Below are positions 590 through 19,991 of a DNA stretch of 20,182 nt, one piece after another. The notes below the pieces were generated by a model. It worked only from the letters and a program-made list of their open reading frames with translations, searched no databases and was not told the origin of the DNA. Source of the DNA: a virus; the IMG/VR virus record IMGVR_UViG_3300042564_003227, positions 1 through 20,182 of that record. One strand, given 5' to 3'. Within the stretch, counting starts at the first letter, position 1; every line of letters begins with the position of its first letter. Position numbers and translations under genes: made by a program.

Positions 590-834
590 AACTTTATATG
601 ACCAAAACGTACTCCGTTTATGAATCATACGGACCGATTGAAATTAACTTGGAAGATTATCCAGAACTTGAAGGAAAAACAGAACAAGAAATCGTTCAAC
701 ACTTTAATGAAATTATGTATGATGACAACATTAAGGGTGGTAGTGAAGATACCTTAGCTGACGAATTTCAGTATAATACTGATATGATAAAACAAAAACA
801 CTCTAACGAAGAAGAAGAAATTGTAAATTATTAA
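586..834 (+). CDS. Conserved-looking acidic phage protein, unknown function
   Basis: This 82-residue protein begins MKLYMTKTYSV. ATG 586 is preferred over the in-frame TTG at 523 because it gives the ATGA overlap with the short frame upstream and the 523 extension is basic and low in complexity; ATG 598 is a second option. The middle, LEDYPELEGKTEQEIVQHF, looks like a folded helix, and the C-terminus is very acidic (EEEEIV). No catalytic motif, signal peptide or membrane segment is visible. It sits in a tight forward run leading to the gp47/gp46 genes, three bases before the zinc-ribbon gene. Function unknown. Confidence 0.65.
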   Translation: MKLYMTKTYSVYESYGPIEINLEDYPELEGKTEQEIVQHFNEIMYDDNIKGGSEDTLADEFQYNTDMIKQKHSNEEEEIVNY

Positions 835-837
835 AAA

Positions 838-1053
838 ATGGATGAATTAATTAAACCAAAAATTAACCTAAAAGAACAACCAACCATTGAATGTGAAAAA
901 TGTAATTGTTTGTACTTTAAGGAAGTTACAATGTTAAAAAAAGTATCAAAAATATTAACAGGTAGTCCCGAAGATACGGTAATTCCCTTCCCAACATATA
1001 TGTGTAATGACTGTGGAAACGTAAATGAAGATTTTAAACTTTTTGACAAATGA
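838..1053 (+). CDS. Small zinc-ribbon protein
   Basis: The 71-residue protein has two CxxC knuckles: C19-E-K-C22 (followed by C24) and C56-N-D-C59, the latter in the form CNDCGNVNEDF. About 33 residues separate them, fitting a single zinc ribbon that binds one zinc ion. Such ribbons are common in small nucleic-acid or RNA-polymerase binding proteins, but nothing here fixes the partner. The gene starts three bases after the previous stop and its own stop overlaps the next ATG as ATGA (1050-1053), so it looks translationally coupled in the block before gp47. The zinc-ribbon call is firm, the role is unknown. Confidence 0.75.
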   Translation: MDELIKPKINLKEQPTIECEKCNCLYFKEVTMLKKVSKILTGSPEDTVIPFPTYMCNDCGNVNEDFKLFDK

Positions 1054-1196
1054 TTGAAATAGGTAAAATGACACTATCCGAAGCATATCCACATCTAAAG
1101 GTAATTGCACACGCTTACGGGTTAAAATTAAATAGAGCGAACGAATTTAAGTTCGCAAGAATGATATTAGTTAACCTATATAATAGAGAACATTAA
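1050..1196 (+). CDS. 48-residue protein, unknown function
   Basis: The frame starts at ATG 1050 inside the ATGA overlap with the zinc-ribbon gene and ends with TAA at 1194-1196, which shares one base with the ATG of the gp47-like gene (TAATG). Overlap at both ends and complete filling of an otherwise empty gap make this a convincing gene despite its size. The protein begins MIEIGKMTLSEAYPHLKVIA and continues with a basic helical segment (NRANEFKFARMILVN). It could be a small helix-turn-helix-like or adaptor protein, but no motif proves this. Confidence 0.65.
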   Translation: MIEIGKMTLSEAYPHLKVIAHAYGLKLNRANEFKFARMILVNLYNREH

Positions 1197-1975
1197 TGAT
1201 AAAAACTTTAGTACATTTTTCTGACCTACACATCAGATTATTTAAAGATCACGATTTATATCGGTCAATATTGACGGATATGTTAGAACAATTTAAAGAA
1301 GTTAAACCTTGTCGAATCGTGTTTACTGGCGACCTAGTACACAGCAAAAATCAGTTAACTCCGGAACTTATTGAAATTGTTAGCTGGGTATTAACCGAAT
1401 GTTCCAAAATCACAAAAACGATATTAATTCCGGGGAATCATGACTTCCTTGTGAATAATTTAGATAGGTTAGACGCTTTATCTCCGATTATCGATTCATT
1501 AAATAACAATAATATTGTTTATTACAAAGATAGGGGTGTCTATGAAGATGAAAACATCAGCTGGTGTGTATATTCGCAATACCAAGGAAATATCCCACCA
1601 GACTTAAATGTTGCAACAGGAATTAAAGTTGGTTTATTTCACGGACCAATACAAGGTATGACGACAGACTTGGGTTATGATTTTGGTGACCACGCCTATG
1701 ACATTGAAAAATTTAATGAGTTGGATGTGGTTTTATGTGGTGACATCCATAAGAGACAAGAATTTAAATTCAAAACAGGTAAAGGGTATATGATTGGTAG
1801 TACCATATCGCAAAACTATGGTGAGTCGGTAACTAAACACGGTTATGGTATTTATGATGTTGAAACCAAAGAATATAACTATGTTGATTTACACAATCCT
1901 AAACCATTTTTAAAATTCTCAATTAAATCTTTTGAAGATATAGTAAATGGAACTGAATTACTCAAAAATCTTTAA
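1196..1975 (+). CDS. 47: Mre11/SbcD-like exonuclease subunit (T4 gp47-like)
   Basis: A 259-residue calcineurin-like metallophosphoesterase with all the expected motifs: FSDLHI (D10, H12), FTGDLVH (D46, H49), IPGNHD (N81, H82), LFHGPI and CGDIHKR, which together hold two metal ions. Mre11/SbcD proteins pair with a Rad50/SbcC ATPase to open and resect DNA ends; in T4 the gp47/gp46 complex drives recombination-dependent replication and host DNA breakdown. The partner is at 3280-5613. Unusually for this pair, four genes' worth of sequence separates the two. The length is slightly below T4 gp47, with a short capping domain. The start overlaps the upstream stop by one base. Confidence 0.92.
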   Translation: MIKTLVHFSDLHIRLFKDHDLYRSILTDMLEQFKEVKPCRIVFTGDLVHSKNQLTPELIEIVSWVLTECSKITKTILIPGNHDFLVNNLDRLDALSPIIDSLNNNNIVYYKDRGVYEDENISWCVYSQYQGNIPPDLNVATGIKVGLFHGPIQGMTTDLGYDFGDHAYDIEKFNELDVVLCGDIHKRQEFKFKTGKGYMIGSTISQNYGESVTKHGYGIYDVETKEYNYVDLHNPKPFLKFSIKSFEDIVNGTELLKNL

Positions 1976-2651
1976 TAAAGAAACAATTAAATCAATCAAT
2001 GAATATTGTAAACTTAACAATATTGAAGATATTGATGGATTCATAAAAAAATGTTTTGAAGCCGGTTTTAATGTTGAAAAATACGGATTGTTAGGAAAAA
2101 CACTTAATGAAGGTGAAAAACACTTAATAAATAGTGATGTTGAAGAAAAACAGATAATAAAGGAGGTAATTGTTGAAAAACGAGTGGAAGTACCGGTTGA
2201 AGTGGTAAAAGAAATTGTTGTTGAAAAAGAAGTGATTAAAGAAGTTCCTGTTGAGGTAATTAAAGAAATTGAAAAAGTTATTACAATAACTAATAATAAG
2301 GAATTAGAAGAAAAAATTTTCCATTTAAACGAGCAAATTGAGTCAGAAAGCAAAATTTTTTCCACTAAGACCCAAGAAATGGAAAATAATTTCCAAAAAG
2401 AAATGTCTAAAAAGGAAAAAGAACTAGATGAACTTAGACAAACTTTAGATATTTCTAGACAAACTTTAGTTGATGATAGTAAAGTAAAAATGTTACAACA
2501 AACAATACAAAATTTAAATTCTGAAATAAGGGATTTGAAAAAGAAAAATGAAGAATTAAATAAAAAATTGTTAGAACAACCAAAACAAAATGTTGATATA
2601 CCGGCAAGATTTCACGGTGGTTCTAACCTAAATGATGATTTATATAAATAA
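1947..2651 (+). CDS. Coiled-coil protein with Val/Glu/Lys/Pro repeats
   Basis: This 234-residue protein overlaps the end of the gp47-like gene by 29 bases in another frame. Residues 1-60 form a helical head (MELNYSKIFNKETIKSINEY). Residues 66-115 are repeats built from KEV, EVPVEV and VKEI units. Residues 118-210 form a long heptad-patterned coiled coil rich in Glu, Lys, Leu and Gln, and the tail is ARFHGGSNLNDDLYK. It is probably an elongated oligomeric protein. Its place between the gp47 and gp46 subunits hints at a scaffold or accessory role there, which is inference. A similar EVPVEV/KEVEKI stretch occurs in the unrelated membrane protein at 11975-13243. No enzymatic motif is visible. Confidence 0.75.
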   Translation: MELNYSKIFNKETIKSINEYCKLNNIEDIDGFIKKCFEAGFNVEKYGLLGKTLNEGEKHLINSDVEEKQIIKEVIVEKRVEVPVEVVKEIVVEKEVIKEVPVEVIKEIEKVITITNNKELEEKIFHLNEQIESESKIFSTKTQEMENNFQKEMSKKEKELDELRQTLDISRQTLVDDSKVKMLQQTIQNLNSEIRDLKKKNEELNKKLLEQPKQNVDIPARFHGGSNLNDDLYK

Positions 2652-2653
2652 TT

Positions 2654-3004
2654 ATGGAAATTTTAGTGTGGTTTATTCTTAGTTACGGACTAATGAATAT
2701 TATGGTCTACGGATCAATCTTTCAGGGATTAAGAGATTTTTTTAGAAATTGGGGAGATAATAAACATCTACCTTTAAGTTTTTTAGGTGGATTTATTTCG
2801 GGTATATTATCGTGTCCGATGTGTTTTTCTACATGGGGAGGGTTTGTTTTATCCCTATTGATATATTCACCAACAAATGTTATGTTTAATACACCTGAAT
2901 GGGGTTCATGGTTTTTTGATGGTATTTTATCATCCGGAGCAGTTTGGGGTATTAATGCGATAATCGAATGGTTTGAGGAAAATCGACCGAGTAATAATAA
3001 ATAA
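2654..3004 (+). CDS. Small integral membrane protein, DUF1360-like
   Basis: The 116-residue protein has an N-terminal hydrophobic segment (residues 3-24), a central one around FLGGFISGILSCPMCFSTW, a third through the FVLSLLIY region, and a C-terminal one near residues 88-104. The CPMCFSTWGG motif (CxxCxxxW) resembles the conserved cysteine signature of the DUF1360 family of phage and bacterial membrane proteins, whose function is unknown. It starts three bases after the upstream stop, with ATTATG and no Shine-Dalgarno sequence. The family call is from memory of the motif and is moderately sure. Confidence 0.65.
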   Translation: MEILVWFILSYGLMNIMVYGSIFQGLRDFFRNWGDNKHLPLSFLGGFISGILSCPMCFSTWGGFVLSLLIYSPTNVMFNTPEWGSWFFDGILSSGAVWGINAIIEWFEENRPSNNK

Positions 3005-3017
3005 ATAATACATAAAA

Positions 3018-3269
3018 ATGGGAAAAGCAGCAAAAGAGCACAGAAAAAAAGTAGCAAAAAGAAACGCTAATTTGAAACAAACAGAAAAAAGAATGCAAAA
3101 ACTATGGCAAGAAGCATTTGAAGAACAAATGAATGTGATGAAGGAAAAATTTGCAGCAATGTCAGGAGACACTATGTCTGGTCTAACTGAATCAAACGAA
3201 AATGAACAAGAAACAACAAAAGAAGAATCCGAACCAGCTGAATCTATTTCAGACGACCAAACAGTTTAA
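3018..3269 (+). CDS. Small basic/acidic bipartite protein, unknown function
   Basis: This 83-residue protein has a strongly basic N-terminus (MGKAAKEHRKKVAKRN), a helical middle (QEAFEEQMNVMKEKFAAM) and an acidic disordered C-terminus ending SISDDQTV. The basic head suggests nucleic-acid contact or polymer binding, but there is no defined domain. The charge split is also seen in small phage scaffolding or accessory proteins. It precedes the gp46-like gene by ten bases when that gene is started at 3280. Function unknown. Confidence 0.65.
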   Translation: MGKAAKEHRKKVAKRNANLKQTEKRMQKLWQEAFEEQMNVMKEKFAAMSGDTMSGLTESNENEQETTKEESEPAESISDDQTV

Positions 3270-3279
3270 TTATAAAAGT

Positions 3280-5613
3280 ATGATAAAAGATTTAGATTTT
3301 TCAAAGTTTGAAAATCCATATATACAAGTGGTATGGGAAGATAATAATGAAAATTTCACACAAGATAAAATTAAAAGTGTTAAACATTACTTCCAAAAAA
3401 AGTATAACACAACTAATGTTAATGTTATAACTAAAGCTAAAGTACAAAAGGAAGAAGGTGAACAAACGGTAGATGTGTCTGTAAATATTATGGACACAAA
3501 TTATCAGATTGAACTTTTAAAACAATACTTAACAAGTAAAAATTACGATAAACATTTGGATGATATTCTCAATCATAATAGAATGGTTGAGAATAAAATG
3601 CAAGAAACCGAAGTTGAAACTGCGGTTTTTAAAAAGTGGTACATTAAAAATATTGAATTCTCAAACTTTTTATCATATGGTGAAAATCAAAAAGTTGATT
3701 TTGAAAAAACTGGTGGTTTAACTGTGATTGAATCAAATCCTCCGAATTTTGGAGGTAAAACAGTACTATCGGTGGATTTATTATTGTTTTTATTCTTTAA
3801 TGAAACGACTAAAACATCCAAAGCTGAAGAAATATTTAATAGGTTTACAGATAATGATAAAGTGACCGTAAAAGGTGAAATAGTTATCGATGGTGAAGAA
3901 TATATTATTGTTAGAAACATTGAACGGAAGTTATCCAAAAAGGGTGAATGGAATGTTAAAACGGAATTGGATTTCTTTAAAAAATTAGCGGACGGAACTT
4001 TACAGAACTTCACTGGGGAACAAAGAAGGGAAACCGAAAAATTCATTAAAGAATCGATTGGTACAAAAGAAGATTTCTTGATGACGATTTTAACAACCGC
4101 CACAAATCTTGAAGAATTAATTGATGCAAAACCAACCGCAAGAGGTCAGGTTTTATCTCGATTTATGGGACTTGATTTTTTAAGAAGGAAGGAAGAAGTG
4201 GCAAAATCAATTTATTCTGATTTTTCTAAATCGATGTTATCAAACATTTACAACACAGAACAATTAAAAACTGATAACGAGAATAATGAAACAAGAATTG
4301 GTGATTTAAAAACAAACATAATTACATTTAAAGATGAATTAACTGAAATTGAATCGAATATTCAAAAAGGTAAGGACTATCGTGATGATATGATGTCTAA
4401 AAAACATACAGATATTGATGTTGAGTTAAGTCGTTTAAATCCGAGTCAAGTTAAACAAGAAATTGAAGGTCATGAGTATCAGATTGAACAAACAAAGTTA
4501 AAGTTATCTGAATTAAATGTTGTTGAACCTAAAGAATTTTATAAGGAAGATGAACATGACAAGATTAAGGAACAATATAATAATGTTTTTAGAGAAAAAG
4601 TTCAGTTAGATACAAAAATATCTGAAGTTGAAAAATTAAAATCTGAAGTTAAAGGAGGGATTAAATGTGAACATTGTGGGATTGAATTGATGAATGCCGC
4701 AATAACACAACAAAAAATCGCTGAACTTGATGGATTAATCACACAAAAAACCGAAAAAGAAGGGTTAATGCTGGAATTATCCACCAAAGAAAAAGGTTTC
4801 GTTGAAATTAAGAAACAATTTGATGAGTATGAAAAAAACAAACTCATTAAAGAAAAATATGACGCAACGATTGAAAATTTTCAATTAAAAATAAACGGAC
4901 TTCAAGTTAAATTAACTGAATATGATAAGATGTTGGATAAAATCAAAACAAATGAACATATTGATTCAATGTTAATAAAGGCTAATATGCGATTGGAGCA
5001 ACTTGATAGAGAAAAAACACAAAAACAAAATCAAATAAATGGTGATGAATATTCAATAAAAACTTTACAAGAAAAAATCAAAACAAATTTAAATAACATC
5101 ATCAAAATTGCTGAAGAACAAGAAAAAGAAAAAATATATAAAATTTATTTGGAAGCGTATGGTAAAAATGGTATTTCTAAAATCATTATGAGAACGATGA
5201 TTCCATTAATCAATTCGGAACTACAAAGATTGATGGAAGAAAGCGCCTATTTCAAACTACAAATCCAAATTAATGATAAGAATGAAGTTGAATTTATTAT
5301 GATTGATAATGGTACTGGTATTGAAAAACTAATGTCATCAGGAAGTGGTTATGAACGTACAATCGCATCATTAGCGTTAAGATCGGTATTAAGTAAAATA
5401 TGTTCTTTACCTAAACCAAATTTGATTGTGTTTGACGAAGTTTTTGGGAAAATATCAAATGAAAATTTGGAAATGGTTCATAATTTCTTTATTGCCATAA
5501 AAGATTTCTTCCCAACCATTTTATTAATTAGTCATAATCCGATAGTTAATAACTGGGCAGACAATACCATTAAAATTTCAAAAGAAGATAATATTTCAAA
5601 AGTTTTTCAGTAA
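3280..5613 (+). CDS. 46: Rad50/SbcC-like ATPase subunit (T4 gp46-like)
   Basis: A 777-residue SMC/Rad50-type ATPase. From ATG 3280, the Walker A loop is NPPNFGGKT (K160), the zinc hook is C463-EHC466 at the apex of two long coiled-coil arms, the ABC signature is SGSGYER (about 687-693), Walker B is LIVFDEVF (D719, E720), and the H-loop is LLISHNP. It should form the DNA-end resection complex with the gp47-like nuclease. About 115 residues precede the normal SbcC start (WYIKNIEFSNFLSYGE), an extra N-terminal domain not found in T4 gp46. An in-frame ATG at 3202 would add 26 low-complexity residues and overlap the upstream gene by 68 bases; 3280 is preferred. Confidence 0.92.
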   Translation: MIKDLDFSKFENPYIQVVWEDNNENFTQDKIKSVKHYFQKKYNTTNVNVITKAKVQKEEGEQTVDVSVNIMDTNYQIELLKQYLTSKNYDKHLDDILNHNRMVENKMQETEVETAVFKKWYIKNIEFSNFLSYGENQKVDFEKTGGLTVIESNPPNFGGKTVLSVDLLLFLFFNETTKTSKAEEIFNRFTDNDKVTVKGEIVIDGEEYIIVRNIERKLSKKGEWNVKTELDFFKKLADGTLQNFTGEQRRETEKFIKESIGTKEDFLMTILTTATNLEELIDAKPTARGQVLSRFMGLDFLRRKEEVAKSIYSDFSKSMLSNIYNTEQLKTDNENNETRIGDLKTNIITFKDELTEIESNIQKGKDYRDDMMSKKHTDIDVELSRLNPSQVKQEIEGHEYQIEQTKLKLSELNVVEPKEFYKEDEHDKIKEQYNNVFREKVQLDTKISEVEKLKSEVKGGIKCEHCGIELMNAAITQQKIAELDGLITQKTEKEGLMLELSTKEKGFVEIKKQFDEYEKNKLIKEKYDATIENFQLKINGLQVKLTEYDKMLDKIKTNEHIDSMLIKANMRLEQLDREKTQKQNQINGDEYSIKTLQEKIKTNLNNIIKIAEEQEKEKIYKIYLEAYGKNGISKIIMRTMIPLINSELQRLMEESAYFKLQIQINDKNEVEFIMIDNGTGIEKLMSSGSGYERTIASLALRSVLSKICSLPKPNLIVFDEVFGKISNENLEMVHNFFIAIKDFFPTILLISHNPIVNNWADNTIKISKEDNISKVFQ

Positions 5614-5654
5614 AAATGTATTATTAATAAAAAAAATTCATATATTTACATATT

Positions 5655-8087
5655 ATGATAATAGATAAAACCATAACACAATTAACAATGTCCATCAATG
5701 AGAAGGATGTTGAAAATAGTTACAGACAATATTTAACAAAGAAAATATCCGATATGATATTCACATCACCATTTGGTTGTGATGGTTTGGGGGTATCTGA
5801 AAATAATAATATACGAGTTTTATGTGAATTTAAAGATGAATTGGATTTACAAAGTAAAGTTGGGCAAGTTAGGGTTTTATCTCAAGTAGTTTATTACATC
5901 AAAAAATTTGAATTAAGTGGGACAATGTTACCGACAACAGTTTTTGTTGGAGACAAAAATGAATGTTTTGTAATACATACCAATGACTTATTTAAATATT
6001 TGTCAATGGATTTAGATTGGAATGTCGCACCATCAAACGCGCACAAAAATCTAATTTTAGTTAATGAAATGTTAATAGATGAAAATATTAACCCACACGT
6101 TTTTACAATTAATGGTATTGACGAATGTTTAACCAAATTAAAAGATTTAACTGATGGTGTCACTCGATTAATTCCAATAACACCACATAACTTAACAGAA
6201 GTTTTTGGTTACTTTGAAAAAAATGTATTAGGTAAACACACATTAAATACAAATCAATTAGCTAATCTATTTACACAGATTTTGATTAATCCTAACGACA
6301 ATTATCTACATCCGGTTAAAAAAAGAAAAACAATTGTTACAAAATCATTTAATGAAGTCTCTGTAAAATCAAGAGAATCTTTTACATCGTTTTTTAGTCA
6401 CTTTTCTAAAGATTACACACCAAGACAAAAAGAAGATCTTACCGCTGTCGTTGACAGGTTGATTCAAGATGTCACAAGACGTAAACAAGGTGAATTTTTT
6501 ACACCAACGATATGGGTTGATAAGGCCCACGAATATATCACATCGGTTTATGGTGAAGATTGGAAAGAAAAATACGTTGTTTGGGATCCTGCTTGGGGTA
6601 CCGGTAACTTAACTCGTGATTATAAATTCAAAGAGTTATATGTATCAACACTTAATTATTCTGATATTCAAACCGCAGAACAGATGGGGTATAACCCTGA
6701 AGCGGTTAAATTTCAGTTTGATTTTTTAAATGATGATTATGACTTTTTACCAAAAGGGTTAAGAGATGCGATTGAGAGTGGTAAAGAAATGATAGTATTG
6801 ATGAATCCACCATATGTAACCGCAAATGTTATGGGAAAAACTTCTGAACATAAAGAAGGTGTTGCGAAAACAAATATGAACCAATTAATGGTTAGTGAAG
6901 GGTGGGGTAAATCTGCTCAAAACCTTTATTCACAATTCTTTTATAGACTCACTAAATTACAAGAAAAAAATAAAAAAATTAAAATTGGTGTTTTTTGTAA
7001 ACCACTTTATTTGACCGGCGACGCGTATAGTGATTTTAGATTAAAATTCTTCAATCATTTTGGTTTTGAAAAAGGATTTTTATTTGAAGCTTCGAATTTT
7101 TCAGATGTCGCTAAAGGATGGGGAATAAATTTTGCAATTTTTACCGAAAATACAAATCAAGAAAAAACTTTTTTCCCACATAATATGATTAAAATTGACG
7201 ATGATATGAATTTAATTTCTTATAACGTAAAAAAATTATATAATACAGATGGGTTAATACAGGCCAGTAAGTGGGTTAGAGAAGAAATAAAAGGATTAAA
7301 AACATTTGACGTACCACAAATCAGTTCCGCAACTATTATTAAAAATAAAGGTATCGGTACTATAACAAAAAACGCTTTAGGGTACTTTTATAATAACTCA
7401 AATAATGTTTCTAAAAATAACCAAAGTGTTGGGTTATTTTCATCCACAATGTCGGCCGGACATGGGCTATCGGTAATACAACAAAATTTTAATAAATGTT
7501 GTAATTTATTTACAAGTAGAAAATTAATTTCTAACGATTGGGTTAACGATAAAGATGAATATTTAACACCAGACGAAAATCACGAAAATTATCAACAATT
7601 CACATACGATAGTATTATACATTCATTATTTAATAATTCCAGTCAACAATCCAGTCTACGTCAAATAACATATAAAGATAAACTATGGGATATTAAAAAT
7701 GAATTCTTTTGGATGTCAAAAGAAGAAATGATGAATCTCGCAAACAATAATAACTATACCGAATTATATAGTGATGCGAGAACTGACAGTAATAGGTATG
7801 TTTATAAGTTATTGTTCGGTGAACAAAATATCTACGAACTATTATCATCTGACGCTAAATTAGTTTTGGATAAGGCAACCGAATTAGTTAGGTTATCAAT
7901 GAATATAAGGAGTCATTTTGCTGATGATCAAAACCATTTAAATTCTTGGGACGCGGGTTATGCACAACTTAAATTAGTATGGAAGGAATATTTTTCTGAA
8001 GAATTTAAAGAATTCAGACAATTATACAAGAATTTAGAAGATAGAATGAGACCTTTGGTCTATGAATTAGGATTTTTATTGAAATAA
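5655..8087 (+). CDS. Single-chain restriction-modification protein (type IIG-like): PD-(D/E)XK nuclease plus N6-adenine methyltransferase
   Basis: This 810-residue protein combines two activities. At the N-terminus, E20, D43 (FGCDG), and E58-F-K60 (LCEFKDE) match the catalytic layout of a PD-(D/E)XK nuclease. In the middle, GEFFTP precedes methyltransferase motif I, DPAWGTG (D311), and motif IV is NPPY (384-387), typical of gamma-class N6-adenine methyltransferases of type I and IIG systems. Residues from about 560 to 810 probably hold the DNA target recognition region. Type IIG enzymes methylate and cut with the same chain. In a phage this could protect its own DNA while attacking host or rival DNA; that is inference. 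ATG 5688 is an alternative start. A TATATTTA box lies at 5641-5648, but no clear TTTG is paired with it. Confidence 0.8.
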   Translation: MIIDKTITQLTMSINEKDVENSYRQYLTKKISDMIFTSPFGCDGLGVSENNNIRVLCEFKDELDLQSKVGQVRVLSQVVYYIKKFELSGTMLPTTVFVGDKNECFVIHTNDLFKYLSMDLDWNVAPSNAHKNLILVNEMLIDENINPHVFTINGIDECLTKLKDLTDGVTRLIPITPHNLTEVFGYFEKNVLGKHTLNTNQLANLFTQILINPNDNYLHPVKKRKTIVTKSFNEVSVKSRESFTSFFSHFSKDYTPRQKEDLTAVVDRLIQDVTRRKQGEFFTPTIWVDKAHEYITSVYGEDWKEKYVVWDPAWGTGNLTRDYKFKELYVSTLNYSDIQTAEQMGYNPEAVKFQFDFLNDDYDFLPKGLRDAIESGKEMIVLMNPPYVTANVMGKTSEHKEGVAKTNMNQLMVSEGWGKSAQNLYSQFFYRLTKLQEKNKKIKIGVFCKPLYLTGDAYSDFRLKFFNHFGFEKGFLFEASNFSDVAKGWGINFAIFTENTNQEKTFFPHNMIKIDDDMNLISYNVKKLYNTDGLIQASKWVREEIKGLKTFDVPQISSATIIKNKGIGTITKNALGYFYNNSNNVSKNNQSVGLFSSTMSAGHGLSVIQQNFNKCCNLFTSRKLISNDWVNDKDEYLTPDENHENYQQFTYDSIIHSLFNNSSQQSSLRQITYKDKLWDIKNEFFWMSKEEMMNLANNNNYTELYSDARTDSNRYVYKLLFGEQNIYELLSSDAKLVLDKATELVRLSMNIRSHFADDQNHLNSWDAGYAQLKLVWKEYFSEEFKEFRQLYKNLEDRMRPLVYELGFLLK

Positions 8088-8713
8088 TGTTAGGAATATC
8101 GAAAAAAATATATAACTTTGTACTATATATAAAACACATATTGATGCGTAAAAGAAACCAAAAAACAGATCCCGCTTATATGTTATTCATATTTGGAGAT
8201 TTTGAAGAACAAGAAACCTTGGCAACAAATTTATCGTCACAGATATTAACGATTGTAAGTTCACCATTTTTAAAATTTACTTATGGTGAATATGGTGTCG
8301 TTTTTCACTTTAGAAGTAAAGAAAAATTTTCAGACCTTAAAGAATATATTGATATGGCTATGTCTGAAATCACCGAACAATACTTTTTGATGGAAACGAC
8401 TAAAAATACGGACGTTAAAATGCCACGAAAATTAAAAAAGGACTTTTTAAATATTGATGGTGAAGAAAAAAAAACAGAAACTAAAACAGGAGAAATTAAT
8501 GTAGAAACAGAATTAAGAGAAAGGAAGGAAGAATTAAAAAACTTCACGTTTGAATTTCTAATGCCTCCGGATTTATTTCAATCAAATAGAAGTGTTGAAG
8601 TAGAAGAACCGACAGTGGATGAAATATTAGACAAAATATCAGAGCAAGGAATAAATTCATTAACAGAACAAGAAAAACAGATTTTAGACAATTATGGAAA
8701 GAGAAAAAACTGA
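8087..8713 (+). CDS. Unknown protein with C-terminal DUF6576-like motif
   Basis: A 208-residue protein whose start overlaps the preceding stop by one base (TAATG). Residues 1-22 are basic and moderately hydrophobic; residues 30-105 look like a compact alpha/beta domain (YMLFIFGDFEEQ, YGVVFHFRS). A charged linker follows. The C-terminus, DEILDKISEQGINSLTEQEK, closely resembles the short helical motif (DUF6576-like) found at the ends of many Bacteroidota proteins, for example rhomboid proteases, and supports a Bacteroidota setting. No protease residues are seen. It overlaps the sigma factor gene by 20 bases, so the two may be expressed together. Confidence 0.65.
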   Translation: MLGISKKIYNFVLYIKHILMRKRNQKTDPAYMLFIFGDFEEQETLATNLSSQILTIVSSPFLKFTYGEYGVVFHFRSKEKFSDLKEYIDMAMSEITEQYFLMETTKNTDVKMPRKLKKDFLNIDGEEKKTETKTGEINVETELRERKEELKNFTFEFLMPPDLFQSNRSVEVEEPTVDEILDKISEQGINSLTEQEKQILDNYGKRKN

Positions 8714-9509
8714 AGATGTTAAATCATCAAATCCTTTGAATCAAGATGAAATCCAAATTTATTTAAAGGATATTAGGAAGTTAAAAGTTATGACCCCTGA
8801 AAGGGAAAAACTATTAGCTGAACGTATTATTTCAGAAAATTGTACGGACAGAGAAAAAGAACTTATTCAAAAAGAAATGTTGGAAGGTAATTTACGATTT
8901 GTAATCACCGTAGCAAAACAATATCAAAATCAAGGAATTGATTTATCAGACCTAATCGCAGAAGGAAACTTCGGTTTAATGAAGGCTATTAAAAACTTTG
9001 ATTGGACAAAAAACAATCGTTTTATATCTTATGCGGTATGGTGGATTAAACAATCAATACTTCAATCGCTTAACGAAAATTCAAGAACGATTAGACTCCC
9101 AGTTAATGTTGTTCAAGATATGCAAAAGGAAAAAAAGGAAAATGAAAAAACCAACAAGGATCTTTCTGACAAGTTTGCAAACCTACCAAGAATGATTGAC
9201 CTTGATATGCACATCAATGAAGATGGTGATACGTTGGTTGACATCATTAAAAACGAAAATGTTGAATCACCAGATGAAATATTTTCAACAAAGGATTTAC
9301 TAAAACAAAAAATGATGAAAATTATGAGTGTTTTAGATGATAGAGAACGTGCCATTGTTGAAGATTATTATGGTATAACTGGTACACCTAGAACTTTGGA
9401 AGATATTGGTTCCGATTTCGGTTTGACAAAAGAGAGAGTGCGTCAGATCAAACAAAAAAGTTTGAGGAAGTTAAGAAATGAATGTTCAGATATCTTTGAT
9501 TTTTTATAA
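8694..9509 (+). CDS. Phage RNA polymerase sigma-70 family factor, RpoD-like
   Basis: A 271-residue sigma factor. Region 1.2 is at about 18-46 (IQIYLKDIRKLKVMTPE), region 2 at 65-136 with LRFVITVAKQY, DLIAEGNFGLMKAI and YAVWWIKQSILQSL, and region 4 at about 205-262 with the helix-turn-helix TLEDIGSDFGLTKERVRQIK. It resembles the short Bacteroidota RpoD (about 287 residues), but region 3 (137-170) is shortened to a charged linker and the sequence has diverged. It would steer host RNA polymerase to phage promoters, probably middle or late ones, which I could not identify with certainty. The start overlaps the preceding gene and keeps region 1.2 intact. Confidence 0.92.
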   Translation: MEREKTEDVKSSNPLNQDEIQIYLKDIRKLKVMTPEREKLLAERIISENCTDREKELIQKEMLEGNLRFVITVAKQYQNQGIDLSDLIAEGNFGLMKAIKNFDWTKNNRFISYAVWWIKQSILQSLNENSRTIRLPVNVVQDMQKEKKENEKTNKDLSDKFANLPRMIDLDMHINEDGDTLVDIIKNENVESPDEIFSTKDLLKQKMMKIMSVLDDRERAIVEDYYGITGTPRTLEDIGSDFGLTKERVRQIKQKSLRKLRNECSDIFDFL

Positions 9510-9551
9510 AATTTAATTTATCTTTTTCGTTCTTTACTCATATTTATATGT

Positions 9552-10460
9552 ATGAGTAAAAGAAAAACGAATGAAGAATTTATTTTAGATTCGATTGAAA
9601 TACATGGTAATAAATATGATTATTCACAAGTAAATTACGTTAGAAACTATGTTAAAGTAGATTTAATTTGCCCAATACATGGTTTATTTAGTGTTAGACC
9701 AAACGACCATTTAAGTAAAAAAGTAGGATGTAATAAATGTAATAATGCGAGTATATCAAAATCTAAAAATGTTGGTAAAAATATAATTGATAGGTTTAAT
9801 AAAAAACACAATAATAAGTATGATTACACAAGTAGTGTTTATGTTCGTAATGAAATAAAAATTGATATAATTTGTCCAATACACGGTTTATTTAGACAGA
9901 CACCACATCATCATTTAACTGGTTCTGGTTGTCAAAAATGTGGAAATGTATATAAAAAAACAACAAGTGAATTTATTGATGAAGCAAATCAGGTACATAA
10001 CAATAAATATGATTATAAATTAACGGAATATAAAAATAATAGTACAAAGGTTATTGTTATTTGTCATCAACACGATGAGTTTAAGGTAACACCAAATGAT
10101 CATTTAAATAAAAAATCTGGATGTCCGAAATGTCAAAATTCAAAAGGTGAAGAAAAAATTGCGGAAATATTAGATAAACAAAAAATTAAATATATTAGAG
10201 AATATATTTTTGATGATTGCAAAAACATTAAACCACTCCCTTTTGATTTTTATTTACCGGAACAAAATTTATGTATTGAATTTGATGGTAAATTACATTT
10301 TAATAGTGTTACGTTTTTTGGGGGTGATAAATCATTAGAAAAAACAAAAAAAAGAGATAAAATTAAAACTAAATATTGTATTGATAATAATATAACATTA
10401 ATTAGGATACCATATTATGAGTTTGATAATATTGAAAAAATCTTATTAAAAATTAAATAA
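9552..10460 (+). CDS. Free-standing homing endonuclease: three DUF723 zinc repeats plus Vsr-like EDxHD nuclease
   Basis: The 302-residue protein has three repeats (about 8-63, 76-130 and 136-194), each with NKYDY, a C-(P)-x-H-G-like pair, P-x-x-H-L and a closing CxxC; these match the DUF723 zinc-binding DNA-recognition repeat. The C-terminal domain (200-302) has E200, FDFYLP (D232), CIEFDGKLHF (E243, D245, H249), KRDKIKTKYC (D269) and LIRIPYYEF, the pattern of Vsr-like EDxHD homing endonucleases. Such genes spread by cutting alleles that lack them. It stands between the sigma factor and the cytosine methyltransferase, each end close to its neighbour, as expected for an insertion. ATG 9548 is out of frame, so 9552 is used. 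Confidence 0.85.
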   Translation: MSKRKTNEEFILDSIEIHGNKYDYSQVNYVRNYVKVDLICPIHGLFSVRPNDHLSKKVGCNKCNNASISKSKNVGKNIIDRFNKKHNNKYDYTSSVYVRNEIKIDIICPIHGLFRQTPHHHLTGSGCQKCGNVYKKTTSEFIDEANQVHNNKYDYKLTEYKNNSTKVIVICHQHDEFKVTPNDHLNKKSGCPKCQNSKGEEKIAEILDKQKIKYIREYIFDDCKNIKPLPFDFYLPEQNLCIEFDGKLHFNSVTFFGGDKSLEKTKKRDKIKTKYCIDNNITLIRIPYYEFDNIEKILLKIK

Positions 10461-10462
10461 TT

Positions 10463-11290
10463 ATGAATGTATTAAGTTTATTTGATGGGATATCCTGTGG
10501 ACAGATAGCCCTCAATCGTGCCGGTATAAAATATGAAAATTATTATGCTTCAGAAATTGATAAGTATGCTATACAAGTCACACAAAGTAATTATCCCAAT
10601 ACGATACAATTAGGTAATATCGTAGAATTAAAAACAGATAACCTACCAAAAATTGATTTAGTTTTTGGTGGATCACCTTGTCAATCTTTTTCAAATGCGG
10701 GTAAAGGTGAAGGGTTTGATGGTAAAAGTGGGTTATTTTGGGAATATGTTAGAGTTCTTAATGAAGTAAAACCAACATATTTTTTACTTGAAAATGTGGT
10801 AATGAAAAAAGAATGGGAAAATGTTATTTCGGAAGCGTTAGGTGTAAAACCAATCAAATTAAATAGTAGATTGGTTTCCGCTCAAAATAGACCAAGGTTA
10901 TATTGGACAAACATTCCAAATTTGATTGAACCAAATGATAAGGAAATTAAAATAAAAGATATTATAGAAACCGACATAGATGAAAAATACTTTTTATCAG
11001 AAAAAGCGGTAACTAGAATTGAAAATAGTAAATTTGGTAGAGAATTCGCAACAATAAATACTGATAAAACAAGAACATTGATTGCTAGCTATTATAAAAT
11101 ACCAAGTGATGGGATATATTTTAATGACGGTAACAGAAAAAGAAAATACACCCCAACAGAGTGTGAAAAATTACAAACAGTTCCAGTAGGTTATACCAAT
11201 TTACTTAGTGATAGTCAAAGATACAAAGTATTGGGGAATGGATGGACTGTAGATGCTATTGCACATATTTTTAAAAATATTCATCAGTAA
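10463..11290 (+). CDS. DNA (cytosine-5-)-methyltransferase
   Basis: A 275-residue C5-cytosine methyltransferase with all key motifs: motif I LSLFDGISCGQIAL (AdoMet binding), motif IV GGSPCQSFS with catalytic C73, motif VI FLLENV (E110), motif VIII QNRPRLYW (141-148), motif IX TPTECEKLQTVP and motif X YKVLGNGWTVDAI. The opening resembles DNMT3-type enzymes more than classical restriction-linked Dcm enzymes. The target recognition domain between motifs VIII and IX is short. There is no matching restriction gene beside it, so it is probably an orphan enzyme that protects phage DNA or alters its expression. It starts three bases after the homing endonuclease stop and is followed directly by the non-coding RNA. 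Confidence 0.93.
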   Translation: MNVLSLFDGISCGQIALNRAGIKYENYYASEIDKYAIQVTQSNYPNTIQLGNIVELKTDNLPKIDLVFGGSPCQSFSNAGKGEGFDGKSGLFWEYVRVLNEVKPTYFLLENVVMKKEWENVISEALGVKPIKLNSRLVSAQNRPRLYWTNIPNLIEPNDKEIKIKDIIETDIDEKYFLSEKAVTRIENSKFGREFATINTDKTRTLIASYYKIPSDGIYFNDGNRKRKYTPTECEKLQTVPVGYTNLLSDSQRYKVLGNGWTVDAIAHIFKNIHQ

Positions 11291-11292
11291 AG

Positions 11293-11324
11293 TTTGGTGA
11301 ATTAGAAAAAAGTGCTTATATTTG
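11293..11324 (+). promoter_or_regulatory. Perfect Bacteroidota-type promoter
   Basis: TTTG at 11293-11296 and TATATTTG at 11317-11324 are exactly 20 bp apart, a full match to the known Bacteroidota consensus (TTTG, 19-21 bp, TAnnTTTG). It lies between the methyltransferase stop and the structured RNA, with no reading frame in front. Transcription should begin about 11329-11333. The match suggests use by the host housekeeping sigma factor, hence probably early or constant expression. Confidence 0.8.
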
Positions 11325-11329
11325 TATTG

Positions 11330-11475
11330 TTAATCTGATAAAGATATGGGTTGAACCGAGATTACCCACACAACTCGGCGGAATGAGACACGAGGTTCTC
11401 AAGGTGAAAATCCTCAATCTTATCTATATGATAAGATGAAACTACACTCCCCCATTGGTACCAGTGGGGGTTTTA
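11330..11475 (+). ncRNA. Stand-alone structured non-coding RNA of unrecognised class
   Basis: A segment of about 145 bases between a consensus promoter and a strong terminator, with no convincing reading frame. Visible pairings are: GATAAAGAT (11337-11345) with ATCTTATC (11417-11424), closing the whole core with one bulge; TGGGT (11347-11351) with ACCCA (11364-11368) interlocked with CCGAG (11356-11360) and CTCGG (11374-11378), an H-type pseudoknot; TGAGA (11384-11388) with TCTCA (11397-11401). ATCTTATC can instead pair perfectly with GATAAGAT (11430-11437), so the core closure and this hairpin exclude each other, as in a switch. It matches no tRNA, tmRNA, 6S, SRP or self-cleaving ribozyme I know. 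The 5' end is approximate. Confidence 0.75.
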
Positions 11476-11480
11476 TTTTT
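11449..11480 (+). terminator. Strong intrinsic terminator of the non-coding RNA
   Basis: CCCCCA at 11449-11454 pairs with TGGGGG at 11465-11470; the stem extends through a T-G wobble, T-A and G-C around a GTAC loop, giving about nine pairs. TTTTATTTTTT follows at 11471-11481. It acts on the + strand; on the minus strand the hairpin lacks a T tract. Its T tract overlaps the 3' end of the convergent gene at 11473-11928. Confidence 0.88.
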
Positions 11481-11928
11481 TCACCCAAATTACAAGTTGA
11501 TTTTTACCAACCCTAAAAGGATTATCTAACGATTCTCTAAAAACTGTTTTAATTTTTAAAATCCAATAAGTCCCACCTTGGAACTTTGGGATTATAGTGA
11601 TTGCTATTTCCCATTTTAGTGATTTAATAACAAATGGGACTTCATCGTTTATTTCTCTTGAAACTATTTTTTCTGCAATTTCTTTTTTTGTAATGTTAAT
11701 AATTTCCTTTATTTCCGGATTACTAATTTCTCTTTGGTTATACTCATAACTATGTTTACCACTTAGTTCAAAACCTTTATCTTCTAAATCTTTTCTGTCC
11801 CTTCTGTCAAAAGCGTGGACACTACGATCAACTTCAAGGTTGAATGTAACTTCAATATTTGAGGCAATTTGAGCTATTGTCTTTTCTAATAATAAATGTT
11901 TTCTAATCGATTCTTTTAATAATGACAT
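11473..11928 (-). CDS. Unknown protein with candidate capsid-targeting N-terminus; possibly RelE/BECR-like
   Basis: A 151-residue minus-strand protein, convergent with the non-coding RNA. It begins MSLLKESIRKHLLLEK, an amphipathic helix ending in LLE15, like the L-x-E site cut by T4-type prohead proteases. The rest has EVDRSVHAFDRRDR, a helix with EIINITKKEIAEKIV, and C-terminal strands (YWILKIKTVF, FRVGKNQLVIWVKK). This helix-then-sheet layout with an early His/Arg cluster resembles phage BECR (RelE/barnase-like) nuclease domains, but that is a weak, memory-based guess. If both readings hold, it would be a nuclease-like protein packaged in the head and injected. Promoter signals in the 46-bp gap to 11975 are unclear. 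Confidence 0.7.
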   Translation of the reverse strand: MSLLKESIRKHLLLEKTIAQIASNIEVTFNLEVDRSVHAFDRRDRKDLEDKGFELSGKHSYEYNQREISNPEIKEIINITKKEIAEKIVSREINDEVPFVIKSLKWEIAITIIPKFQGGTYWILKIKTVFRESLDNPFRVGKNQLVIWVKK

Positions 11929-11974: not shown

Positions 11975-13243
11975 ATGAATGAAAAAATTTTACCGTGGTT
12001 TTTATTATTTTGTGCGTTAGGTTTATCAGGTAGTGCCGCATATTATAGTGTTGTTGGGTTATCAGTTGTTTTTACGGGTGTCGCAATACCTGTTATTATT
12101 ATGGGATCATTCCTTGAAATATCAAAAATAGCAATCGCAACCTATCTTCACGACAGATGGAAACAAACATATGGTGTTTTAAAGATATATATGACTACGG
12201 CACTTGTTACATTATCGATTATTACTTCATTAGGTATCTACGGATTATTAAGTACGGGATTCCAAGAAAATATCGCAAAACTTGAAATAAGTAACAAAGA
12301 AGTTAATAATGTTGAACTTAAAAAGAAACGTTTTGAAGAAATCAAAGATGAATTAACAAAAGAAAAAGAAACACTTGATGGTGACATCACAAAATTAAGG
12401 GATGGTTTATCAAATAACACAACCACCCAATCTGTTGATAGAAGAACTGGACAAATAGTAACCAAGGCAAATAATGCAAATAGAAAAACATTTGAAAATC
12501 AATTAAAGGATGTTCAAATAAGAAGGGACACAATATCAAAAAGAATTGATTCGATGAACGACAGTATCACAAAATTGGATGTCGACATCTTAAATATGGA
12601 ATCTCAAGAAATCCAAGGAAGCGAACTAGGTACAATAAAATATTTAAGTGAAGTTTTGGGTTGGGATATAAAAAGAACCGCAAACCTTTTTATATTAATT
12701 TTGATTTTTGTTTTTGACCCATTGGCAATAACATTGGTTATTGCAACAAACCAAGCATTCAAAGGGAATAAAAAGGATGAGGACAATTTCACGGTAAATA
12801 CACCTGATTACCCCGTAAATACCCCCCAAGTACCCCTTAACGACCCCTTAACTACCCCACAAGTTGATGAAGAAACCAACCAAGTACCGACTAACCACCG
12901 ACTAACCACCGACCAAGTAGAACCCATTATTATTGAAAAAATAGTTGAAGTTCCGATAGAAGTTATTAAAGAAGTTGAAAAAATAATTGAAGTACCAGTG
13001 GAAGTTGAAAAAATAGTGGAAGTAATAAAAGAAATTGAAGTTCCCATTTATATTGAAAAAGAAAATCCATCAAACGAAGAATATTTTGAAAATGATGGTT
13101 TAATTGATTTACAAAGTTTAGAAAATGAAGTTATAGTTGAAACACCAGTTGAAGAAATTAAAGAAGAAATAGTTCAAATAGAACCTAAACGAATTTCATA
13201 CACAAACAGAAATGGTGGATCTCTCAAAATCAATAGAATTTAA
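11975..13243 (+). CDS. Four-helix membrane protein with coiled coil and repeat-rich tail
   Basis: A 422-residue protein. Membrane segments lie at about 6-28, 30-50, 72-93 and 236-258; a long charged coiled coil (98-215) lies between the third and fourth. The tail (259-422) has a Thr/Pro/Asn/Val-rich stretch (VNTPQVPLND, LTTPQV) encoded by the 11-bp DNA repeats, then EVPIEVIKEVEKI repeats similar to those in the protein at 1947-2651, and a basic end. The layout of three helices, coiled coil, one helix recalls DUF4407-like proteins. The coiled coil and tail should be on opposite sides of the membrane. It heads the run with the amidase-like and spanin-like genes, so an envelope role is likely but unproven. 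Confidence 0.75.
   Translation: MNEKILPWFLLFCALGLSGSAAYYSVVGLSVVFTGVAIPVIIMGSFLEISKIAIATYLHDRWKQTYGVLKIYMTTALVTLSIITSLGIYGLLSTGFQENIAKLEISNKEVNNVELKKKRFEEIKDELTKEKETLDGDITKLRDGLSNNTTTQSVDRRTGQIVTKANNANRKTFENQLKDVQIRRDTISKRIDSMNDSITKLDVDILNMESQEIQGSELGTIKYLSEVLGWDIKRTANLFILILIFVFDPLAITLVIATNQAFKGNKKDEDNFTVNTPDYPVNTPQVPLNDPLTTPQVDEETNQVPTNHRLTTDQVEPIIIEKIVEVPIEVIKEVEKIIEVPVEVEKIVEVIKEIEVPIYIEKENPSNEEYFENDGLIDLQSLENEVIVETPVEEIKEEIVQIEPKRISYTNRNGGSLKINRI
12810..12918 (+). repeat. Nine 11-bp C-rich direct repeats in two blocks; G4-capable on the minus strand
   Basis: Units begin at 12810, 12821, 12832, 12843 and 12854 (block 1) and 12875, 12886, 12897 and 12908 (block 2), separated by 10 bp. Examples are ACCCCTTAACG, ACCCCTTAACT, ACCCCCCAAGT, ACCGACTAACC (twice, identical) and ACCGACCAAGT. 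The CCCC runs start at 12811, 12822, 12833, 12844 and 12855, exactly 11 bp apart, so the minus strand has five GGGG runs with loops of 5-7 bases, a formal G-quadruplex motif. As 11 is not a multiple of 3, each unit is read in a different frame, so the repeat looks like a DNA-level pattern inside the gene at 11975-13243. Confidence 0.85.
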
Positions 13244-15637: not shown

Positions 15638-16624
15638 ATGGACAGAAAAATTTATAATATAGTTAGACAAGTGTTATCTGAAGATTCGGATAAAATGTGC
15701 TCTGAATGTGGTGGAAAAATAATGGAAGGTGAATGTATGGAATGTGGTAGTAAAATGATGGAAGATGATTGTTCAGAATGTGGGACAATGGAAACCGAAT
15801 TTAAAGAATCCAAAAAACTATCTAAAGGTCAGGAATATATCGCAAAACAAGCGGAACCTAAAAATAAAATAGACGCTAAAGATTTTGCAAAATTAAGAGC
15901 AAAGAAGTCGGAAAAAAATTTAAAAGAAAATTTAACATACAAAATAGTTTTAGACGAATCCACAAACGAAACTTTTTATTTTAAAGAAAATGAAGTTATC
16001 GATATTATAGAAAATATTGTTAATGAAGAAAAAAGTAAAAAAACCAAAGTTAATAACGTAACAAAAGATTCACAATCTAAATCTAAAAAAGAAAATGATG
16101 ATTATATTAATAGCGTTGTTAAAAAAATGAAGGACTATTTAAAAGGTGGTTCTAAAGGTGAATATGAAACTGAACCAAAACACTTCCCTAAAGGAAATGG
16201 TGAATTGGAAAAAATGGATAAAATGGCATATATACCATCAGATGCTGTTGGAGAATATATTGAAAATTTTACAGCTGCTGGCCTTGAAAATTTGGACTAT
16301 GATGAAATACACCCTAATGAAAAGTGGGTTGAAGATAACTTAGTTGGTTCATCAAGAACGGGTAATAACCCAGAATGGGCAAACGCGGTTGAAACTGAAG
16401 TTGGTGAAAAAAGAAATAAAATCAGAAAAGATAATTTGTTGGCTAAAATGAAAAGAAAAGCTTATAACAAATCACCTCAACCTGTTTTGACAGATAAAAG
16501 TGGATCTGAAACCGATAAAGCATCAAAATTAATGATGAAATTAGAATCCACAGACGGTAAGATTGTTTTAGAAGAAATTCAAAAAATGAAAAATCTTATC
16601 GATTATGGTAAAAAAACACAATAA
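15638..16624 (+). CDS. Cys-knuckle phage protein with candidate capsid-targeting N-terminus
   Basis: A 328-residue protein. It begins MDRKIYNIVRQVLSED, an amphipathic helix ending in LSE15. Three CxxCG knuckles follow at C21/C24, C33/C36 and C45/C48, separated by acidic Met/Glu-rich spacers; an odd number of pairs suggests one pair binds in trans or is degenerate. Then comes LSKGQEYIAKQAEPKNKI with DAKDFAKLRAKK, a segment I associate with structural or head-associated proteins of related phages. The rest is charged and low in complexity, with KHFPKGNGELEKMDKM and a basic end. Likely virion-associated; no activity can be assigned. TATTTATA at 15627-15634 lies just upstream, significance unclear. 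Confidence 0.7.
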   Translation: MDRKIYNIVRQVLSEDSDKMCSECGGKIMEGECMECGSKMMEDDCSECGTMETEFKESKKLSKGQEYIAKQAEPKNKIDAKDFAKLRAKKSEKNLKENLTYKIVLDESTNETFYFKENEVIDIIENIVNEEKSKKTKVNNVTKDSQSKSKKENDDYINSVVKKMKDYLKGGSKGEYETEPKHFPKGNGELEKMDKMAYIPSDAVGEYIENFTAAGLENLDYDEIHPNEKWVEDNLVGSSRTGNNPEWANAVETEVGEKRNKIRKDNLLAKMKRKAYNKSPQPVLTDKSGSETDKASKLMMKLESTDGKIVLEEIQKMKNLIDYGKKTQ

Positions 16625-18378: not shown

Positions 18379-19003
18379 TTTTTAATCTGTATAATCTTTT
18401 TTTATCAAATCCTTTTTCGGTTAAAACATTATATATCCACTTCCTTTGTGTTGTGGATATATCTTTTACAAATATACCATCTACCCTATTATTATTGAAA
18501 AAATAATTTTGTAGAATATCCAAAAACCGTATCGATTCGTTTTTATCTTTTAATGAAAATAAATAAAGTCGTTCATCTATTTGTACACAAATTTTATTAT
18601 GTAAGGTAAATATGTTTTTAAGTTCGTTATTATTACAATAGGTTGTAATGAATTCATTAAAGGTTATTTTGTTATCTGTTTGCCAGTCAAATAGTTTTTC
18701 TTCTTGTTTAAAAGTAACAATATCAATAAAAACATAATTACTATTTTCAATATTTGCGGGGATATTTCGGCCAAGGTCGTCCTTTAAAAATAAACTTTTT
18801 TGAACATTAGTGGTATTTGTTAGTAACCCCAACGTGTATGAGGTTTCTTCAGCATTTTCAATAATCTTAGGGAAAATTATCTTATTCTGTTGTTCAATTA
18901 AATCTTTAAAAAAATTAATCGCACTTTTTTCTTTAGTATAACGTTTGATTATTTTTCTTTTTTTTTTATTTTTAAAAAGTACAATAAGATAATTACTATC
19001 CAT
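18359..19003 (-). CDS. Minus-strand phage protein, unknown function
   Basis: A 214-residue protein beginning MDSNYLIVLFKNKKKRKIIK, with a basic N-terminal strand-turn region, an N-terminal domain including EKSAINFFKDLIEQQNKIIF, and a C-terminal part (NKICVQIDERLYLFSLK, RKWIYNVLTEKGFDKKRLYR) rich in aromatic and basic residues. No catalytic motif is seen. It is convergent with the gene at 18160 and divergent from dnaJ. Its ATG and that of dnaJ overlap in one CATG (19001-19004), leaving no intergenic space, so its transcription signals must lie inside dnaJ. Confidence 0.7.
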   Translation of the reverse strand: MDSNYLIVLFKNKKKRKIIKRYTKEKSAINFFKDLIEQQNKIIFPKIIENAEETSYTLGLLTNTTNVQKSLFLKDDLGRNIPANIENSNYVFIDIVTFKQEEKLFDWQTDNKITFNEFITTYCNNNELKNIFTLHNKICVQIDERLYLFSLKDKNESIRFLDILQNYFFNNNRVDGIFVKDISTTQRKWIYNVLTEKGFDKKRLYRLKTTFSKR

Positions 19004-19991
19004 GAAGAACTATTATGAAATTTTAGGTGTTGATGAAAAAGCAACACAGGACGATATTAAAAAAGCCTATAGAAAATTAAGTAAACAATATCATCCAGAT
19101 GTAAACCCTGGTGGTGAAGAAAAATTTAAAGAAGTGAGTGAAGCCTATGAAAATATAGGTGACGAACAAAAAAGGATGGATTACGATAATAGGAAAAATA
19201 ACCCATTTGTCGGAATGGGTAATGGTGGTTTTGATATTCATAGTATGTTTGAACAAATGATGGGTAATGGTCGTCGTAATAGACCCACAGCACCCGATAA
19301 GGTCATTAGTTTTGATATTACACCAATAGATTCCTATTATGGGGTTAAAAAGGAAATAAAAGTACATAACAATTTAACTTGCGAACCTTGTAATGGTGGT
19401 GGTGGAGATAAAAAAATATGTGAGACTTGTTTAGGTAACGGATTTGTGATTCAAACCTTCGGTACGAATATGTTCAGACAACAAGTTCAAACTAATTGTC
19501 CCACTTGTCAAGGTCATGGTTCGATATTAATAAATCCTTGTAATATTTGTAATGGATCTGGTGTAAATGCTAAATTGGAAACATTTATGGTTACAATACC
19601 ACAAAATGTGGATAATGGTGACTTTATGCGTTTAAAAGATAAGGGTGACTATTATCCAAAAATTAAACTAAGAGGTGATTTAATTATAAAGATTAATATG
19701 GTTAATGATAAAAACTACGAAAAAGTGGGTATGGATCTCGTATTAAAAATGAAATTAACACCACTTCAACTAATATTAGATGATAAATTAATGATTGAAC
19801 ACCCTGATGGTTTATTATCTATTAATATCCCAAATAAACTCGACACAGACGTACCATTAAGAATACCGGCTAAAGGGTATAAAACACAAAACGGCGTCGG
19901 ACATTTTTATATTAAATTATCCGTATCCAAAAATGAAAATATTGATGAAGATTTAAAAAATAAAATAAAATCAATATTAGAACATGTTTAA
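19002..19991 (+). CDS. dnaJ: DnaJ (Hsp40) co-chaperone, phage-encoded
   Basis: A 329-residue DnaJ. The J domain (1-65) has YYEILGV and the HPD triad at 31-33, which stimulates the DnaK ATPase. A short Gly/Phe-Met region follows (67-90). The zinc domain has all four CxxCxGxG repeats: C127/C130, C140/C143, C166/C169 and C180/C183, holding two zinc ions. The C-terminal substrate domains follow. It is somewhat shorter than host DnaJ (about 370 residues), mainly through the G/F linker. No dnaK is in the window, so it probably works with host DnaK, perhaps in head or tail assembly or replication. The start is fixed by the J domain, and its 5' end is shared with the minus-strand gene. Confidence 0.93.
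   Translation: MKNYYEILGVDEKATQDDIKKAYRKLSKQYHPDVNPGGEEKFKEVSEAYENIGDEQKRMDYDNRKNNPFVGMGNGGFDIHSMFEQMMGNGRRNRPTAPDKVISFDITPIDSYYGVKKEIKVHNNLTCEPCNGGGGDKKICETCLGNGFVIQTFGTNMFRQQVQTNCPTCQGHGSILINPCNICNGSGVNAKLETFMVTIPQNVDNGDFMRLKDKGDYYPKIKLRGDLIIKINMVNDKNYEKVGMDLVLKMKLTPLQLILDDKLMIEHPDGLLSINIPNKLDTDVPLRIPAKGYKTQNGVGHFYIKLSVSKNENIDEDLKNKIKSILEHV

Follow-up and report, generated by a model that had tools for sequence, protein, structure and literature searches.

A small structured RNA gene outside the known families in uncultured viruses

The sequence analyzed here (the window) is a 20,182-nt stretch of viral DNA in which genes for a sigma factor, an endonuclease, and a DNA methyltransferase are followed by a short interval, a convergent gene that we call c3, and a gene, c0, for a predicted membrane protein (Table 1). 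The interval opens with TTTG-N20-TATATTTG (11293–11324), an exact match to the Bacteroidota-type promoter consensus, and closes with the hairpin CCCCCATTGGTACCAGTGGGGG (11449–11470), whose nine pairs precede a T-rich tail. This terminator is the strongest of four in the window, where 1.5 are expected. The pattern TTTG-N17–23-TAnnTTTG has no other match on either strand of the window; since the mean in dinucleotide shuffles of the full window is 2.7 matches, a match somewhere is not rare, but 0.25% of shuffles have one within this 60-nt stretch. Both the perfect promoter and the terminator with a T tract described in a first-pass annotation of this DNA are thus present. The RNA gene that these signals delimit would be transcribed from its own promoter.

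Table 1. The RNA gene and its neighbors, in window positions
Feature	Position	Strand	Remarks
Phage sigma-70-family factor	8694..9509	+	Gene usually upstream of the RNA in relatives
HNH/homing-type endonuclease	9552..10460	+	Variable insertion, sigma gene to RNA
C5-cytosine DNA methyltransferase	10463..11290	+	Variable insertion, sigma gene to RNA
−33 element TTTG	11293..11296	+	3 nt past methyltransferase stop codon; Bacteroidota-type promoter
−7 element TATATTTG (TAnnTTTG)	11317..11324	+	Spacer 20 nt; start expected near 11330
Predicted RNA, about 145 nt	11330..11480	+	Predicted transcription start
P1 5′ strand UGGGU	11347..11351	+	Pairs with 11364–11368
P2 5′ strand CCGAG	11356..11360	+	Within P1 loop; H-type pseudoknot with 11374–11378; invariant 58/58
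P1 3′ strand ACCCA	11364..11368	+	Alignment A6 pairing
P2 3′ strand CUCGG	11374..11378	+	Alignment A6 and P2-free scans
Joining segment CGGAAU	11379..11384	+	Conserved; C-R-GAA in most homologs
P3 hairpin GAGAC-ACGAG-G(U)UCUC	11385..11400	+	Bulged U; loop NNGAN; 5/5 pairs changed on both sides
P4 hairpin AGG-UGAAAAU-CCU	11402..11414	+	Closing pair A-U 29, G-U 19, G-C 9
P5 hairpin AUCUUAUC-UAUAU-GAUAAGAU	11417..11437	+	Variable sequence and length; four pairs changed on both sides
GAAAC after P5	11438..11442	+	Conserved
Intrinsic terminator	hairpin 11449–11470 plus T-rich tail, to 11480	+	Hairpin covaries (26-sequence test)
c3, 151 aa, function unknown	11473..11928	−	Convergent; 3′ end overlaps terminator; often, not always, adjoins RNA
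c0, predicted membrane protein	11975..13243	+	Downstream anchor of locus

Two further features concern the proteins of these phages. A similar short N-terminal leader (M-x-LL/IR-x-x-L-x-E-E) occurs on many of them, including those encoded in the window at 11473–11928 (− strand) and 15638–16624 (+ strand) and by several ORFs of the related locus L047; it recalls the leaders that target T4 internal head proteins to the capsid. The window gene at 19002–19991 (+ strand) encodes a DnaJ-like chaperone that has a J domain, a zinc finger, and a C-terminal domain.

The predicted RNA consists of a 5′ H-type pseudoknot of near-invariant sequence, three hairpins, and the terminator. A single fixed pseudoknotted structure was tested against alignment A6, which contains 58 distinct sequences. 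In this alignment, 96.3% of cells pair, compared with 88.8% in shuffles, and 146 cells are changed on both sides, compared with 49 in shuffles, counts that include relatedness, which neither the shuffled nor the slid controls remove. When the structure is slid by 1–3 columns, 32–51% of cells pair, a comparison that somewhat favors the proposed fold because the tested structure was partly derived from the same sequences. An independent covariation test of 26 sequences, terminator included, agrees with A6. Compensatory changes therefore go beyond both types of control, as they should for a conserved structured RNA, and uphold the stand-alone structured RNA that had been proposed for this interval.

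Variation is unevenly spread over the molecule. P3 changes its sequence completely, with all five pairs replaced among variants such as GAGAC/GUUCUC, GGGAC/GAUCCC, and GGUGC/GUCACC, against a pseudoknot core that stays fixed. In P1, the four GGGU/ACCC pairs are identical in 58 of 58 sequences and the next pair is A-U in 30 and U-A in 18; P2 (CCGAG/CUCGG) does not vary at all, so that covariation cannot test P2, and P1 rests on one covarying pair. Covariation shows the predicted fold of P3–P5 and this one pair of P1, and P1 and P2 would coexist in one RNA. As scans in which either P2 or P1 was left free returned only chance matches and no true variants, the sequence of the pseudoknot, and not just its pairing, is held fixed. 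The evidence for structure is comparative rather than energetic: the fold energy of the stretch is modest (z = −2.5), and energy folding alone does not single out the proposed fold, as expected with a pseudoknot. An alternative closing helix suggested by RNAalifold, GGUU/AAC(U/C), is by eye not kept in the L138 and L148 types, unlike P1. An extended form occurs in L148 (466–1071), L163 (2927–3534), and L184 (220–825), where P5 is short and the core continues for ~100 nt before the terminator.

The first-pass annotation had seen no convincing reading frame and recognized no known class of RNA, and on both counts we agree. A short coding gene, MRHEVLKVKILNLIYMIR, might be read from the ATG at 11383, which in the window and some relatives starts an open frame of 18 codons (ATGAGACACGAG...), but several homologs have an in-frame TAG, one codon varies radically between K, R, W, and stop, and the changes all follow the stems; as a conserved function, this gene is refuted. 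A covariance search of the window with the models of Rfam 15, a check that the annotation had itself suggested, gave no match at the gathering score (ribozymes, riboswitches, 6S, tmRNA, GOLLD, and ROOL included), and matches at E ≤ 10 were at chance level and mostly on the terminator. The divergent family members L110, L130, and L137 likewise had no Rfam match, and neither ARAGORN nor the Rfam tRNA fold detected a tRNA or tmRNA at the RNA. No direct repeats of the kind that form a ToxI-like tandem array are present at 11285–11485. Likewise, a ToxN/CptN-type endoribonuclease was not found beside the RNA in Pfam or PADLOC searches of c3, c0, the sigma factor, and a 179-aa protein encoded upstream in some relatives. 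We conclude that this interval genuinely encodes a small folded RNA, one that belongs to no known family.

Relatives of this RNA are numerous among uncultured viruses. An IMG/VR search with the neighboring gene c3 retrieved 15 loci, 11 with a close homolog of the RNA and 4 with a different RNA, and the motifs GGCGGAATGAGACACGA and ACCGAGANNACCCN{1,5}AACTCGG were found in 35 and 93 IMG/VR stretches (contigs), respectively. Altogether, the family comprises at least 93 IMG/VR contigs and 59 distinct cores. Searches of isolated phages (INPHARED) and plasmids (PLSDB) gave no convincing homolog. For cellular genomes, one exact-pattern scan of GTDB returned 7 stretches, which is the number that we estimate to be expected by chance; none resembles the RNA beyond the pattern or has its other features. 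The family is thus known here from uncultured viruses alone. Judging from the promoter type, the ~100 carrier viruses, presumed to be mostly freshwater, probably infect Bacteroidota.

In carriers, the gene order is sigma factor, variable genes, RNA, an optional convergent c3, c0, and an amidase gene. L047, where the contig ends, is an exception, and two lineages (L138/L144 and L148/L163/L184) carry the RNA off-locus, with its own promoter and a convergent c3 homolog; no sigma gene or c0 was found there. This arrangement bears on several earlier suggestions. Asking whether related phages keep the same genes on either side of the locus yields a divided answer, as the sigma gene upstream and c0 and the amidase gene downstream are kept while the RNA comes and goes at the site. 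The speculative link to the methyltransferase or the homing endonuclease falls away, both genes being variable insertions. The view that the RNA does not lead into a gene farther along its strand is right for the immediate neighbor, which is convergent, but not for c0, which starts ~500 nt downstream in the window (from 11975) and follows the RNA directly in many relatives.

The RNA is single-copy and accessory. Among 25 whole records, 15 have a single strong copy, in one case along with a second, weak match (E = 0.003), and the 10 without the RNA at the locus (25–304 kb; possibly incomplete) also lack it elsewhere in the record. When loci were retrieved by c0 alone, 35 of 78 matched the RNA model, the others having a bare terminator or another RNA, and a quick c0 tree of the 78 rows implies at least 15 changes of RNA state; because presence of the RNA was part of the basis for choosing these rows, 35 of 78 should not be read as a frequency. 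L031 and L066 have identical c0 segments, the former with the RNA and the latter with a bare terminator. Such patchy presence also fits a selfish or neutral element.

Two other types of RNA were observed at these loci. RNA-B (L070, 3700–3848, + strand; alignment A7; ...GGGAAGCTTACTCCTGGGGTCGTAAGTCGTCGTGACACCGCGGTTAGTGTGTCGGGTTTAAA...) is a second apparently stand-alone RNA that is also found in L018, L073, L103, L105, L147, L150, L161, L162, and L170, mostly with its own TTTG/TAnCTTTG-type promoter and a terminator. Several phages have it between their sigma gene and the 179-aa gene, which is then followed by a member of the window RNA family. RNA-B has no Rfam match; its CCGCGGU is like the 16S 530 loop, a likeness that may be due to chance. 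A short copy resembling its 3′ part lies behind a promoter directly upstream of the window RNA family in L006 (5595–5658, − strand), L037 (3488–3551, − strand), and L039 (4150–4213, + strand). RNA-C, a third type with a single or repeated ACGATTYAGATAC loop motif, fills the slot beside c3 where the window RNA is absent (L013–L016; and, at about 3440–3590, L069, L081, L094, and L106–L109). It has no Rfam match at the gathering level and a weak match in L107 only. L013 also has 23 tRNA genes in 10 kb among small ORFs (774–10048, − strand).

How is the RNA made, and does it act on the transcript that it is part of? Among 60 distinct upstream contexts, 18 (the window included) have TAnnTTTG near the core, compared with 8 of 168 control segments, and this promoter is seen where the RNA is separated from the preceding gene. 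The remaining 42 have no own promoter near the core, which mostly starts 3–20 nt past the stop codon of the sigma gene or another gene, and a terminator always lies 3′ of the core where the sequence extends far enough. One possibility is that the RNA is a 3′-end element that acts in cis, capping the mRNA of the sigma factor or other upstream gene against 3′ exonucleases or directing its processing and termination. The 42 promoterless contexts and the ever-present terminator are in keeping with such a role. However, in 18 contexts a promoter intervenes between the upstream gene and the RNA, the upstream gene itself varies (sigma, c12, the 179-aa gene, or the methyltransferase), a bare terminator suffices in many relatives, and a stabilizer has no obvious need for an invariant core, all of which make this explanation unlikely. 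Stop-codon read-through driven by the pseudoknot was also considered and rejected, since the spacing to the upstream stop codon varies and a promoter often intervenes. As the fold is kept with its own promoter, behind differing upstream genes, and where a convergent gene replaces c0, we infer that the RNA acts in trans rather than as a leader. Nonetheless, many copies lack a recognizable promoter of their own, leaving some room for a role tied to the upstream transcript.

On the downstream side, an aptamer-like invariant core followed by a terminator could be a riboswitch-like attenuator that senses something and sets read-through into c0 and later genes, and at loci without c3, c0 starts roughly 165–200 nt after P1. 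We consider this improbable: in the window, as in many relatives, a convergent gene separates the RNA from c0, L138/L144 and L148/L163/L184 showed no c0 downstream, and an unsystematic look revealed no conserved alternative pairing with the terminator. With a convergent gene or no c0 downstream, many carriers do not place the RNA where a riboswitch leader would stand, before a gene that it controls.

We give equally little credence to a partnership in which the RNA would serve the c3 product or the 179-aa protein as an antitoxin or a substrate. Convergent c3 homologs accompany the RNA in the window, in many relatives, and in the two off-locus lineages, and where RNA-C takes the slot it too adjoins c3, but many carriers have no c3 nearby and many c3 loci have no RNA. 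Moreover, searches of Pfam, PADLOC, and PDB folds gave no match for c3, and hence no nuclease is shown; its resemblance by eye to BECR/DUF4258-type nucleases (H..R and T-V motifs) was dismissed, as Pfam gave nothing and its AlphaFold model (pLDDT 78) matched no PDB structure at E < 0.18. Finally, ribozymes are known in phages, and the small pseudoknotted fold with its invariant core might suggest a self-cleaving or otherwise catalytic RNA, but this is very improbable, as no Rfam ribozyme family or known self-cleaving fold was matched, no conserved flank could hold an upstream cleavage site, and the pairing order P1-P2-P1′-P2′ lacks the inner helices of HDV-like ribozymes. The earlier proposal of a trans-acting RNA or ribozyme is thus retained in its first half, on the strength of the RNA's own promoter and varied neighbors, and nothing found in this analysis points to cleavage.

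The reading that we favor, and to which we give about an even chance, is that of a free, folded, noncoding RNA that acts in trans, binds a protein during infection, and is used against the host. Host RNA polymerase, with the host main sigma factor, would probably transcribe the RNA from its own promoter; in carriers without this promoter, the RNA would be the 3′ end of the mRNA for the sigma factor or another protein and would need trimming. The transcript would then fold into the P1/P2 pseudoknot of fixed sequence, three hairpins that are free in sequence but fixed in shape, and the terminator. Since the pseudoknot and joining bases are fixed beside freely changing stems, their simplest reading is a surface that a protein recognizes. 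The pattern of gain and loss and the exchange with other RNAs suggest a role against the host. Its optional presence, and its replacement at the site by either a terminator alone or a different structured RNA, point to a decoy or inhibitor of a host protein, such as a defense nuclease, as the likeliest role. A counter-defense role specifically is possible but tentative. More doubtful is the idea that this is a new class of phage RNA in which the invariant pseudoknot imitates an RNA of the cell and disarms a defense or takeover target of Bacteroidota, encoded at a site that exchanges unrelated RNAs (the window RNA as A, along with B and C) as weapons.

Only a few free structured RNAs are known from phages, and most of them lack an explanation. 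The RNA described here is short, has a sharply delimited invariant core, is found in ~100 related phages, and comes with natural pairs that differ in its presence and with a site at which RNAs replace one another, features that make its role directly testable. It could reveal an RNA-based way past Bacteroidota hosts.

Phage T4 makes two small stable RNAs, C and D, of 120–140 nt, encoded in its tRNA cluster and of unknown role. They resemble the window RNA as small phage RNAs but differ in their location in a tRNA cluster, and we claim no relation in sequence. Closest in kind to this new RNA class are GOLLD and ROOL, stand-alone structured RNAs of phages and prophages that have no known function (PMC12286853). 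Like the window RNA, they are phage-encoded and noncoding, with a strongly conserved, pseudoknotted fold (PMC12286853), but their size is far greater and their genes neighbor tRNA islands, whereas the window RNA, at about 145 nt, has a sigma gene beside it. For mimicry by phage RNA, a precedent is the pseudo-ToxI or type III antitoxin RNA, which shares with the window RNA an H-type pseudoknot that could imitate the RNA ligand of a defense nuclease (PMC3475682). However, ToxI consists of 36-nt tandem repeats, and the window RNA has one pseudoknot without repeats, to which three hairpins and a terminator are added. RNA anti-CRISPRs (Racrs) are also phage RNA mimics, in the form of solitary CRISPR repeats (PMC10651486). 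Here the likeness lies in a short phage RNA beside a promoter, without cas genes and possibly acting as a molecular mimic (PMC10651486), although the window RNA is much longer and multi-domain. By analogy with these systems, we propose that the window RNA may work like a decoy, while assigning it to neither ToxI nor the Racrs.
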